Part shown: piece by piece, positions 22,260 to 41,475 of the stretch | Numbering within the stretch: the first letter of the stretch is position 1 | Layout of the letters: each line of letters starts with the position of its first letter | Source: Caviibacterium pharyngocola | Lineage (GTDB): Bacteria; Pseudomonadota; Gammaproteobacteria; Enterobacterales; Pasteurellaceae | Direction: 5' to 3' | Assembly: GCF_002795405.1 (NCBI RefSeq) | Contig: NZ_PHGZ01000020.1 | Coordinates: 62,001 to 126,000, forward strand | DNA: 64,000 nucleotides | Position numbers and translations under genes: made by a program | The notes under the pieces: model-generated | Seen by the model: the letters and a program-made list of their open reading frames with translations, nothing else | Told to the model about the DNA's origin: nothing | Databases searched by the model: none

Positions 22260-22704
22260 ATGAACAACCATATTCAACTTTTTGAAAATCAACAAATTCG
22301 TTCTGTTTGGGATAATGAACAGGAAGAATGGTTCTTTAGCATTATTGATATTGTCGCGGTTCTGACGGAAAGCGCCGATCCAAAACAATATATAAAAAAA
22401 ATGCGAAGTCGAGATAATGAACTAAATTTGAAGTGGGGTACAATTTGTACCCCTGTTGAAATGATAGCTCAAGATGGAAAAAAACGTAAAATTCAAGCAG
22501 CAACAATGCAAGGCATTTTCCGTATTATTCAATCTATTCCTAGCCCGAAAGCCGAGCCGTTTAAAATGTGGTGGTGCAGTGGCTGGTAATGCACGAAAAG
22601 AAATTGAGCAGCAAACAGGGCAACCCGTCATCACGCAAAAGAAAGCCATTGATTTTGCCAAAGTGATGAATGATGTCAGAAAAATTGAAAAAGAAACCGA
22701 ATGA
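22260..22704 (+). pseudogene. Broken Bro-N/DinD-like gene
   Basis: Homologous to the intact 273-residue gene at 24079. The first about 103 residues (Bro-N domain, ending ..IPSPKAEPFKMWW) are in frame from the ATG at 22260. After about 22569 the homology jumps to the C-terminal tail in another frame (AVAGNARKEIEQQTGQPVIT, stop at 22704). Relative to the intact copy, about residues 104-240 are deleted and the frame is shifted. Promoter, LexA box and ribosome site remain, so a truncated Bro-N domain may still be made. Confidence 0.85.
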
Positions 22705-22709
22705 ATTTT

Positions 22710-22770
22710 CCGACAGCGACCTTTGGTCGCAATCGGTTAATGATTAGTCGGTGGATTTGCCGTGCTAAGA
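22710..22770 (+). repeat. REP-like element of the 40-kb transposase family
   Basis: CCGACAGCGAC-CTTTG-GTCGC hairpin, then AATCGGTTAATGATTAGTC and GCCGTGCTAAGA. The same modules flank the transposase gene at 40396. It lies directly after the broken Bro-N gene and before the convergent hydrolase. Confidence 0.75.
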
Positions 22771-30224: not shown

Positions 30225-30272
30225 TCTTTATAGGGACAAATTCTCCCTAGGTAGTAATGATGACGGAAATCG
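30225..30272 (+). pseudogene. Short remnant of a third Bro-N gene
   Basis: ATAGGGACAAATTCTCCCTA and GGTAGTAATGATGACGGAAA match bases 24250-24295 of the intact DinD-like gene with few changes. Only about 48 bp survive, directly followed by REP-like sequence. Confidence 0.65.
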
Positions 30273-30350
30273 GTAGCTTTACTACCTTTAAAACCGAGCG
30301 ACAAAGTCGCTCACTTATGATTAACCTTGTACGGCTTTGCCGTGCTAGGA
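30271..30350. repeat. REP-like modules (GAGCGACAAAGTCGCTC type)
   Basis: CGGTAG...CTACC, then GAGCGACAAAGTCGCTC, then ACTTATGATTAACC, then TACGGCTTTGCCGTGCTAGG. The order and sequence match 40241-40318 beside the transposase gene. Confidence 0.75.
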
Positions 30351-37598: not shown

Positions 37599-37690
37599 AA
37601 TCGTTCGCTATGAGTAACACAGTACGGCAGTGCTGAGTATTGGCATTTGCAAAATTTTTTAAAAATCCGACCACTTGAATAAGTTACAAC

Positions 37691-38976: not shown

Positions 38977-40128
38977 ATGTCAAACCAAAAAATCTATCAG
39001 TATCTAATGGCGTTCGGGCATTTTTGTTCGGATATCAATCAAACCGCATTAACGGCGTTATTGCCCTTTTTAATTGCTATTCATCATTATGATTACACCA
39101 CAGCAGCGATGTTGGTTTTGGTTGCCAATATGGTCAGCTCGGTGGTGCAGCCGCTGTTTGGGCATTTGGCGGATAAGTTTAATTGGGTGTGGATTGTGCC
39201 GGTGGGGTTGTTATTGGCTGGCGGTGGCATTGCGGCAACGGGTTACACATCTGATTTTTGGCAACTCTGTTTAGCCGTGATGATAAGCGGTATCGGCATT
39301 GCGATGTTTCATCCGCAAGCGGCGAAATTAGTCAATCTTGCATCAGGCTTGCATAATCGTGGCACGGCATTAAGTATCTTCGCTTTTGGTGGTAGTACGG
39401 GGGCGGCAATGGGTCCGATTTTAATTACTGCATCAATCGCTTTATTCGGTGTGCAAGGTACGCTCACGTTTTTGCTGATTGAACTGCTCGCTTGTTTGAT
39501 GATTGGGCGTTATTACCGTGCATTGACCGAATTAAACGGCGGTTCAATAAAAGCGAAACAAGCAAATGCACAGGCAACACAACAAGATCAATGGGGCGCA
39601 TTTTCCGTGTTGTGTGTGGTAATGTTCGGGCGTTCGATTATCTATTACGGGCTGAACACTTTTTTGGCACTTTATTGGATCAACGTTCTCGGCACAACTG
39701 AAACGGTAGGCAATACCATGCTCAGCATTTATTACACCATCGGCGCAATTTGCACCTTATTCGGCGGAAAATTGGCGGATAAATTCGGTGCGCGCAATGT
39801 GTTGAAGTGTGGTTTTGCCGTGTTGTTTCCGAGTATTGCCTTGCTTGCGATGACAGGAAACGAACTTTTCGCCTCCGCACTTTTATTGCCAATGGGGGCG
39901 GCAATTCATATTGTGTACAGCCCGACCGTGGTATTAGGGCAACAATATTTGCCGAACCGTATCGGTTTTGCATCAGGCATCACGCTTGGGCTTGCCATCA
40001 GTATCGGCGGGATTACTGCCCCAATACTTGGAAAAATCGCCGATATTTACGGATTAACTACCGCACTTTATAGCGTGGCACTTGTGCCACTTGTTGGAGC
40101 ATTCTTATTAGCGAAACCGAAAGATTAA
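38977..40128 (+). CDS. MFS transporter, Fsr-like
   Basis: 383 residues with about 12 membrane helices. The sequence AFGHFCSDINQTALTALLPF at 12-31 and the loop FGHLADKF near 59 match the fosmidomycin-resistance (Fsr) subgroup of the major facilitator superfamily, proton-driven drug exporters. It is monocistronic, divergent from the DUF1016 gene, and followed after one base by an ACAAGCGGT uptake core. Confidence 0.88.
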   Translation: MSNQKIYQYLMAFGHFCSDINQTALTALLPFLIAIHHYDYTTAAMLVLVANMVSSVVQPLFGHLADKFNWVWIVPVGLLLAGGGIAATGYTSDFWQLCLAVMISGIGIAMFHPQAAKLVNLASGLHNRGTALSIFAFGGSTGAAMGPILITASIALFGVQGTLTFLLIELLACLMIGRYYRALTELNGGSIKAKQANAQATQQDQWGAFSVLCVVMFGRSIIYYGLNTFLALYWINVLGTTETVGNTMLSIYYTIGAICTLFGGKLADKFGARNVLKCGFAVLFPSIALLAMTGNELFASALLLPMGAAIHIVYSPTVVLGQQYLPNRIGFASGITLGLAISIGGITAPILGKIADIYGLTTALYSVALVPLVGAFLLAKPKD

Positions 40129-40155
40129 AACAAGCGGTGAGATTTTTTGGAAAAT

Positions 40156-40177
40156 TTGCGATCTCGAGCGAAAAATT
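40156..40177 (+). repeat. Semi-palindrome copy 6
   Basis: TTTGCGATCTCGAGCGAAAA. As with copy 1, a REP-like CCGACAG follows about 30 bp later rather than a gene. Confidence 0.6.
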
Positions 40178-40202
40178 GAGATAAAACACTTGTTGCTTTT
40201 AT

Positions 40203-40387
40203 CCGACAGCGACTAAAGTCGCAATCGGTTAATCATAAGTCGGTAGTTTTGCTATCTCAAAAAGAGCGACAAAGTCGCTCACTTATGATTAACCTAGTAC
40301 GGCTTTGCCGTGCTAGGAAAAAGACGTTTATCCGACAGCGACTAAAGTCGCAATCGGTTAATCATAAGTCAGTCGCTTTGCGACTGT
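40203..40387. repeat. REP-like elements upstream of transposase
   Basis: Two direct copies of a module with hairpin GCGACTAAAGTCGC and tail AATCGGTTAATCATAAGTC (40203-40240 and 40331-40370), with GAGCGACAAAGTCGCTC plus GGCTTTGCC modules between (40264-40318) and AGTCGCTTTGCGACT at 40371-40385. The tail TTAATCATAAGT recurs in both orientations. Confidence 0.8.
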
Positions 40388-40395
40388 AACGGCAG

Positions 40396-40857
40396 GTGAA
40401 AATGAGTTATACAAGATTGCTTTATCATATTGTTTTTAGAACGAAAAATGGCAAGCCTGCAATTACCGTAGAACACGAGAAGATTTTATATACTTATATT
40501 TGGAAATTTATTCAAGAGCGAAATTCGGTTTTATATCGTGTGAACGGAATGCCTGATCATATTCATATTTTTACGGCATTACACTCTGATATTGCCGTTG
40601 CTGATTTTGTCAGAGAGCTGAAAAATGCGACACATTTGCTATTAGAAAAACATCACGCCGAATTTCCGCAATTTTATGCGTGGTCTAAAGGCTATTGTGC
40701 GATCAGCTATTCGGATAAAGAACGTGAAAAAATCGTTAATTACATCAAAAATAAAAAAGAGCATCATCAATACACTAGCTTTCTTGAAGAAACAAAATAT
40801 CTTTTAAATGAAGCTGGGATTGAATACGATGAACGTTATTTTGATCGAAATATTTAG
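40396..40857 (+). mobile_element. REP-associated tyrosine (Y1) transposase
   Basis: 153 residues, a Y1 HUH transposase of the IS200/RAYT class. The metal-binding HUH motif is HIH at residues 55-57 (GMPDHIHIF), and the catalytic Tyr is Y116 in VNYIKNKKEHH. The start is probably the ATG at 40402 (MSYTRLLYHIVFRTKNGK). It is flanked on both sides, in inverted orientation, by REP-like palindromes that also occur at 22710 and 30271. That arrangement identifies a RAYT that mobilises REP elements, rather than a plain IS200. The gene looks intact. Confidence 0.85.
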
Positions 40858-40866
40858 ATATATTAT

Positions 40867-40921
40867 CAGCCACAACGTGGCTGACTTATGATTAACCGAT
40901 TGCGACTTTGTCGCTGTCGGA
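40867..40921 (-). repeat. REP-like element downstream of transposase
   Basis: CAGCCACAACGTGGCTG, then ACTTATGATTAACCGATTGC and GACTTTGTCGCTGTCGG. It is the inverted counterpart of the upstream modules, and runs up to the ribosome site of ogt. Confidence 0.8.
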
Positions 40922-40941
40922 GCAAGCTTAAGGAAAATAAT

Positions 40942-41475
40942 ATGCACTACACCAGTTTCTATCAATCGCCTGTTGGCGAAATATTACTTGCCAGTGATGA
41001 TGTCGGCGTGGTTGGTATTTGGTTTAAAGGCGAAAAGTATTATGCCTACTGTCTTGATAAAGAATATGAACCGAAGGAAACGCAAAGCATCCGAGAAATG
41101 AAGCGTTGGCTTGATGTTTATTTTCAAGGCAAACAACCTGATTTTGAACCGCCTATTCATATGATCGGCACGGCATTTCAACAAGAAGTTTGGCATATCC
41201 TGCGTGAAATTCCCTACGGAACGACAACCACTTATAAAGAAATCGCCCGAAAAATCGCCCAAAGCAAAGGCATTGAAAGTATGTCGGCACAAGCGGTCGG
41301 TACGGCAGTGGGCAAAAACAATCTTAATTTGATTGTGCCTTGTCATAGAGTGGTTGCGTCTAATAATAGCCTTGCAGGATATGCTGGCGGTATCGACAAG
41401 AAAATTACCTTTCTAAAATTAGAAGGGGCTTTTAAAGATGAATATTTTGTACCGAAACACAGTACAGCACCCTAA
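40942..41475 (+). CDS. ogt: Methylated-DNA--protein-cysteine methyltransferase
   Basis: Repairs O6-alkylguanine by transferring the alkyl group to its own Cys. 177 residues from the ATG at 40942 behind AAGGAAAA. The active-site motif IVPCHRVV is near residue 133, the helix-turn-helix with Arg finger in PYGTTTTYKEIARKIA near 92 and AVGTAVGKNN near 118. The region encoding ALSAQAVGTAVG carries an exact ACAAGCGGT uptake core (41289-41297). Confidence 0.94.
   Translation: MHYTSFYQSPVGEILLASDDVGVVGIWFKGEKYYAYCLDKEYEPKETQSIREMKRWLDVYFQGKQPDFEPPIHMIGTAFQQEVWHILREIPYGTTTTYKEIARKIAQSKGIESMSAQAVGTAVGKNNLNLIVPCHRVVASNNSLAGYAGGIDKKITFLKLEGAFKDEYFVPKHSTAP

Follow-up and report, generated by a model that had tools for sequence, protein, structure and literature searches.

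REPs are common repeats of bacterial genomes. Y1 proteins have been split into subclasses, of which those of class 2 carry a Y---NP motif, and the REPs beside five class 2 subclasses have a GT[AG]G foot, as given in the accessible part of PMC6006769. The same part describes subclass 1.2 by the motifs Y---Q--HH and DH[IV]H, a median length of 148 aa and a low copy number, places it mostly in Cyanobacteria and Bacteroidetes, and lists it with no REP; the REP search of that study was automatic for GTAG/GTGG hairpins and was done by hand for some subclasses, and none are listed there for subclass 1.2. IS200/IS605 elements select their cleavage sites through base pairing with guide tetranucleotides that lie 5′ of the hairpins; in REPs, this part may fall to GTAG (PMC8266576, in the sections consulted).

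Here, we analysed a stretch of 64,000 nucleotides from Caviibacterium pharyngocola (the window, contig positions 62001-126000 of a genome of 2.49 Mb), in which an earlier note had described an intact and active RAYT inside its own REP elements. The locus resembles TnpA-Y1 subclass 1.2 in its DH[IV]H motif, the Y---Q--HH motif of its relatives, its length of about 150 aa, its low copy number and its Bacteroidetes-rich family, but that subclass is described as REP-free in the accessible text of PMC6006769, whereas here repeat units lie at most loci examined, the gene type is common in Pasteurellaceae, and the window copy has Lys for Gln. With RAYTs, REPtrons and REPINs, as portrayed in the available portions of PMC2817692 and PMC8266576, it shares a single Y1 gene between inverted palindromes, dispersed gene-free inverted pairs, and a protein and a repeat that change together; it differs from them in its protein class, in having two hairpins with a 12-nt linker, and in showing TAACC, not GTAG. 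TIRYTs and TIRtrons are also Y1 genes between inverted repeats other than GTAG REPs, some of them dispersed, but many share a GGGGWSAS motif, and the accessible part of PMC3733652 makes no mention of TAACC paired hairpins; 20 of 26 TIRYTs belong to subclass 2.1 (PMC6006769, same part). IS200/IS605 elements such as ISDra2 and IS608 share with the locus the fold, the HuH/Tyr signature and hairpins whose foot is preceded on the 5′ side by a possible guide, whereas the latter has a single copy, inverted ends and two hairpins per end. We consider it probable that the locus is a REPtron-like element, in which inverted paired-hairpin repeats stand on both sides of a single-copy TnpA-Y1 gene of the subclass 1.2 type; copies of these repeats are dispersed, mostly as gene-free pairs, and their mobility would run through single-stranded DNA.

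A putative subclass 1.2 transposase gene

The transposase gene of the locus is the following:

40402..40857, + strand: tnpA, Y1 (HuH) single-strand transposase, 151 aa, subclass 1.2-like (open ORF, Pfam, NCBIfam)

Its reading frame is open, as had been stated, and the product matches Pfam Y1_Tnp at 6.4e-23. HIH at 55-57 and Tyr116, as given in the earlier note, are the positions counted from a GTG at 40396; counted from the ATG at 40402, the histidines of the DHIH motif are H53 and H55 and the same tyrosine is Tyr114, followed by Lys118 in a Tyr motif that reads YIKNKKEHH. The neighbours of tnpA are genes for an MFS transporter and an O6-methylguanine-DNA methyltransferase. The NCBIfam model of the IS200/IS605 transposases (transpos_IS200) scores the window TnpA at 64.3 bits, above its cut-off of 55, and matches 40 of the 40 family members of alignment A4 at E<=0.001. 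An AF2 model of the protein (pLDDT 89) matched the TnpA structures of ISDra2 and IS608 at E 5e-8 to 6e-6. The pattern Y--[QK]--HH was found in 56 of 61 Pasteurellaceae loci, the window included and the other five being truncated matches, and in all 73 distant loci. In a tree of 133 proteins, which held no subclass reference row, 55 Pasteurellaceae rows formed one clade (98/90) inside a Bacteroidota-rich family. A gene of the window type occurs in 47 of 140 Pasteurellaceae genomes, with one copy in the own genome (E<=0.001). The length of 151 aa and the single copy fit the length and low copy number of subclass 1.2, and, matched to the published description of the Y---Q--HH signature, the window TnpA appears to fit TnpA-Y1 subclass 1.2 best.

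At residue 118, Gln was found in 55 of 56 Pasteurellaceae and in 73 of 73 distant proteins, and the Lys of the window is the single exception among 129. Among the columns of a 40-row alignment that at least 90% of the other rows conserve, the window TnpA departs at this one alone. Eight of the 40 rows showed at least one departure at columns conserved in at least 95%; a single departure from a conserved column is not rare in itself, and it is the position of Lys118 that counts. The equivalent residue of IS608, Gln131, is part of the metal site and is essential for transposition in vivo (PMC6006769, in the part available). The gene had been called intact and active: the frame is indeed open, but since Lys118 replaces a conserved metal-ligand Gln, the activity of the window TnpA is doubtful, and the enzyme may be weakened or dead owing to this residue.

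Inverted paired-hairpin units bracket tnpA

The paired-hairpin units of the window are given below, with their scores for R1, a covariance model built from tnpA-flanking ends, and the z scores of their ssDNA folds:

40332..40386, + strand: paired-hairpin unit at the upstream end of tnpA, with hairpin A, GGTTAATCATAAGT linker and hairpin B (R1 63.2 bits; ssDNA fold z -5.4)
40867..40920, - strand: inverted paired-hairpin unit at the downstream end of tnpA (R1 63.9 bits; ssDNA fold z -6.1)
40203..40257, + strand: paired-hairpin unit with a degenerate hairpin B, left half of a gene-free inverted pair (R1 41.7 bits; z -2.6)
40264..40317, - strand: paired-hairpin unit, right half of the same gene-free inverted pair (R1 70.1 bits; z -6.0)
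30296..30349, - strand: dispersed paired-hairpin unit (R1 62.8 bits; fold z -4.3)
22710..22762, + strand: decayed paired-hairpin unit (R1 26.0 bits, E 9.3e-5; two-hairpin fold lost)

A unit is laid out as hairpin A, a 12-nt GGTTANNCATANT linker and hairpin B, the latter usually with 7 bp and a 3-nt loop, and the foot of hairpin A is TAACC (GGTTA on the other strand), with no GTAG. When folded as ssDNA, both tnpA-flanking units formed exactly two hairpins with the linker free, and 0 of 200 shuffles folded as well. The earlier note was right that inverted modules bracket tnpA, though it had not noticed that each is a pair of hairpins, and its further modules near 22710 and at 30271-30350 were recovered by R1 as the decayed unit at 22710-22762 and the unit at 30296-30349. 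The 12-mer TTAATCATAAGT, which it had called a tail common to all modules, is exact at five sites of the window, but has two mismatches at 22737. Genome-wide, the exact 12-mer was found 10 times, versus 0 for the reversed control. With two mismatches allowed, 13 were found within the window and 8.77 were expected, which is not above chance, and therefore only the exact 12-mer matches and the covariance model carry weight. The modules had also been said to sit right after broken or remnant genes; this holds at 22710, where the unit follows a split BRO-N gene, and perhaps at 30296, but the unit at 40203 follows an uninterrupted MFS gene.

Some smaller features were seen in the window as well. 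The BRO-N family gene is split over two frames at 22260-22704, a phage-type remnant before the decayed unit. By eye, a remnant of an inverted partner of the 30296-30349 unit lies at about 30271-30295. A weak R1 match (15.8 bits, E 0.03) was found at 37599-37637, just before the end of a YhcG-type nuclease gene.

The stems were analysed in 38 ends (alignment A1), nearly all of them beside tnpA of other Pasteurellaceae and picked for possessing both hairpins. They showed strong compensatory change: the paired cells amounted to 96.0% versus 64.6% when shuffled, both-side stem changes were found in 208 cells versus 61.5 in shuffles, and covariation reached 0.751 versus 0.210 shuffled and at most 0.101 in slid controls. 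Choosing rows with both hairpins raises the pairing level, but it cannot by itself create compensatory changes. For alignment A3 and model R2 (21 rows of Bacteroidota units), the rows were chosen by a detector that requires perfect inner stems, and so the 99.6% pairing in this alignment is partly by construction. On the TAACC strand, GAA predominates as the hairpin B loop of the distant group, and the commonest loops in Pasteurellaceae are AAA, GGA and AGA.

The single copy, the inverted palindromic flanks and the gene-free copies would all agree with a canonical RAYT/REP system, that is, a class 2 TnpAREP with GTAG-type REPs. The NCBIfam RAYT model (REP_Tyr_transpos) gives a weak match to the window TnpA (22.8 bits, E 7e-5) and also matches 24 of the 40 family members at E<=0.001, and 4er8, a RAYT bound to REP, came 30th among the fold matches of the AF2 model (E 9e-6). 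However, the cut-off of 80 of the RAYT model is missed, Y---NP is absent, and the foot is TAACC and not GTAG; a further point against it is that GTAGGGTGGG-type REPs accompany the RAYTs given for Haemophilus influenzae and H. parasuis (PMC2817692, in the part available). With protein model, Tyr motif and hairpin foot all contrary, we reject this explanation as highly improbable, and what is left of the RAYT that the earlier note had seen is a Y1 gene in hairpin repeats of its own.

Units accompany this tnpA type in Pasteurellaceae and in distant bacteria

The association of the units with this type of tnpA was surveyed by a detector with the layout hairpin B, 6-12 nt, TAACC and hairpin A starting at CC, run on 350 bp on each side of the gene. 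This layout was already known from the very loci that were then scored, and dinucleotide shuffles of the same flanks served as the control. It was positive at 45 of 61 Pasteurellaceae loci, from which a few further small fragments of the same genomes had been left out (83 units, both sides at 23 loci; shuffles 0.05 loci). Among the distant loci, mostly of Bacteroidota, 57 of 73 were positive (115 units, both sides at 36; shuffles 0.15 loci); 80 had been fetched, and the Pasteurellaceae L053-L058 and L060 were left out as their genomes were already used. Unit density in the distant loci was 2.28 per kb within 350 bp of the gene versus 0.024 per kb beyond 1 kb, and in Pasteurellaceae 1.94 per kb near the gene versus 0.165 per kb beyond 600 bp. 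In a motif-free test, the upstream/downstream inverted repeats of 60 of 73 distant loci outscored every one of 40 block shuffles; the common TAACC layout first emerged from these motif-free inverted-repeat alignments.

The similarity of the units also followed that of the proteins, with a Spearman rho of 0.48 over 43 loci and 0.50 over 57 loci, and 0 of 999 permutations were as high; for pairs below 85% protein identity the values were 0.38 and 0.49. TAACC is demanded by the detector, and its invariance in this comparison is by construction. As to orientation, hairpin A lies outside, relative to the gene, in 65 of 83 Pasteurellaceae units, and hairpin B in 90 of 115 distant units.

An ordinary IS200-type insertion sequence with miniature derivatives, and no REP-type system, would agree with a sequence and a fold that are nearest to the IS200/IS605 TnpA, and with a gene that lies between two matching ends. 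Yet there is one copy here, and relatives usually have one to three divergent copies of this tnpA type; moreover, the ends are inverted repeats of two hairpins each, and members of IS200/IS605 are said to be without terminal inverted repeats (PMC2817692, same part). Such paired ends were not found at seven IS200-type places of Pasteurellaceae, which gave 0 units by the detector and 0 by R1 at E<=1, the class of two of them (L267 and L268, with no later tblastn match) coming from the initial family gene search alone. We regard an ordinary insertion sequence as unlikely.

By eye, the DNA before tnpA in several Pasteurellaceae appears to be the coding end of a hisC-like gene, and in some of them a hisB-like gene seems to start beyond tnpA (L033, L143, L145-L148, L150-L152, L154, L157 and L161, among others). 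Such a setting would suggest a long-kept position, and not a hopping insertion sequence.

Dispersed copies in genomes with and without the gene

In the own genome, R1 gave at least 38 matches at E<=0.01, with 150 of 827 first-look candidates scored. The 38 comprise 14 inverted pairs, all with hairpin A outside and one of them enclosing tnpA, nine single units and one overlapping match; the gene-free inverted pairs measure about 95 to 137 bp. Together with the exact 12-mer counts above, this bears out the gene-free copies that had been proposed to lie elsewhere in the genome.

Over 140 Pasteurellaceae genomes, with at most 41 candidates scored per genome, R1 matched in 85 at E<=0.001. The median number of matches, on counts that may be lower bounds, was 14 in the 47 gene-bearing genomes and 0 in the 93 without the gene. 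Gene-bearing genomes were assigned by hand (best match of at least 52% identity, fragments included), and genomes with only 22-29% matches, of the IS200 type, were counted as without the gene. Some matches in each gene-bearing genome are automatic, because R1 was built from tnpA-flanking ends; the difference remained after subtracting four matches each (p 8e-10). Among the 93 genomes without the gene, 38 had at least one R1 match and 14 had at least five. Unit-rich genomes in which no gene of this type was found include G115 (41), G036 and G087 (33 each) and G049 (23). In a set made up of gene-bearing genomes only, R2 matched in 13 of 14 distant genomes, with at least 113 matches in Oligosphaera and at least 64 in Paludibacter (at most 150 candidates scored per genome). 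Given the association found by the detector and these dispersed copies, the subclass-1.2-type branch appears to have a REP class of its own.

Units missing at orthologous sites and an enclosing MITE-like repeat

The earlier note had looked to presence or absence at orthologous sites as a sign of mobility. In comparisons drawn from other Pasteurellaceae genera, not from the window's own copies, five sites (L214, L215, L216, L230 and L233) carry a unit in one species that one or more related species lack at the orthologous position. R1 at E<=1 finds no unit in L234, L235, L236, L239, L242-L245 and L254, and it finds the expected units in L238 and L241. The only clean junction is that of L216 of G055 against L234 of G056, where about 188 bp are missing, namely the unit pair together with the MITE-like terminal repeats that flank it. 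The junction edges of L230 and L233 are unplaced because the intergenic DNA is too diverged. The counterpart of L222 in G067 is a GTAG-type palindrome and not an empty site, the orthologous places of L217, L220, L225 and L229 are occupied or otherwise filled, and L219, L221, L223, L226, L228 and L232 gave no usable flank pair for comparison. Within the own genome, no clean empty copy came from the additional matches to the MITE ends (L199, L200).

Of the 23 unit places of the own genome, six lie inside a CTTGTTGATCTTTTGAG-type MITE-like inverted repeat, with both ends present at L169, L170, L192 and L181 and one end at L167 and L193; a genome-wide pattern search found no such repeat at the other 17. 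The earlier note had not seen this enclosing repeat. These six places, and the clean empty site that removes the MITE whole, indicate that at least part of the unit spread occurred by hitch-hiking. It might even be that another transposase mobilised a MITE which took the dispersed copies along as passengers, with a link to TnpA that is historical only, and the similar repeats that can be seen by eye in two other genera, at L214, L216 and L223, fit with this as well. But the 17 repeat-free places of the own genome, the absence from related species of the units at L230 and L233, where no MITE-like repeat is seen by eye, and a unit type that tracks the TnpA sequence all argue against it, and we hold such a passenger origin to be improbable.

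The units could also be retained because their hairpins, as RNA or DNA, serve the host, for example in transcription termination or attenuation. Five terminator-like sites were indeed found in 40000-41100 versus 0.9 expected, and in several genera the same intergenic gap is filled by differing units or by other palindromes. Against this, no Rfam match was found at E<=1 in 40000-41200, the conserved linker has no T-run, and the units are concentrated at tnpA genes and can be missing at orthologous sites. We think a host role of this kind very unlikely, and exaptation of some unit copies is possible. The gap in question (L225, L247-L253) lies, by eye, between aldolase and phosphoglycerate kinase genes; part of the genera have paired-hairpin units there, and the rest have other palindromes, some of which are GTAG-like. 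An identical left half unit, letter for letter, was seen in two genera, at L214 and L216 of G055 and at L222 and L223 of G068, which points to recent spread or transfer.

A proposed mechanism for the REPtron-like element

The system behaves as a REPtron would, without being a RAYT. Pasteurellaceae and Bacteroidota have in common a TAA that immediately precedes, on the 5′ side, the CC foot of hairpin A. With TAA at the guide position, the likeliest mechanism would have the units extruded on single-stranded DNA, e.g. on the lagging strand, and bound by a TnpA dimer, which is predicted to cut them: the TAA next to this foot would guide both the nick made by Tyr114 and the transfer of the strand, and the unit pair would be copied or moved as a result. 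Some unit copies would be carried by an enclosing MITE. Hairpin B, at a guess, might serve the second protomer. The scheme can be extended, in a tentative proposal that we hold to be slightly less probable than its opposite, to subclass-1.2-type TnpA as one more, distinct origin of REP-type repeats, alongside the GTAG REPs and the CGTC repeats, in Pasteurellaceae, Bacteroidota and Lentisphaerota and also, provided that the bins are right, in scattered other phyla; the two active sites of one TnpA dimer would then be filled by both hairpins together with the linker, and a single unit would equal two IS200 ends.

The units at most subclass-1.2-type loci read as a correction of the published no-REP description, and not of the membership. 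In the literature searched, which took in few subscription journals, no description of these paired-hairpin units was found. A Y1 branch filed as repeat-free carries a recognisable two-hairpin repeat in both Pasteurellaceae and Bacteroidota, which would account for a class of dispersed hairpins with at least 113 matches in one genome, and which would add a second, independent example of dispersed repeats that change in step with a single-copy transposase. It also offers many natural pairs of an enzyme and its presumed substrate for testing how the substrate is read.

With regard to the cleavage site, the 34 units of the own genome have a TTTTTAT consensus 5′ of hairpin A; this consensus is weak across 100 units of other species, and so no cleavage site is claimed. 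The ATAA of the linker could pair with the TTTTTAT stretch of the own genome.
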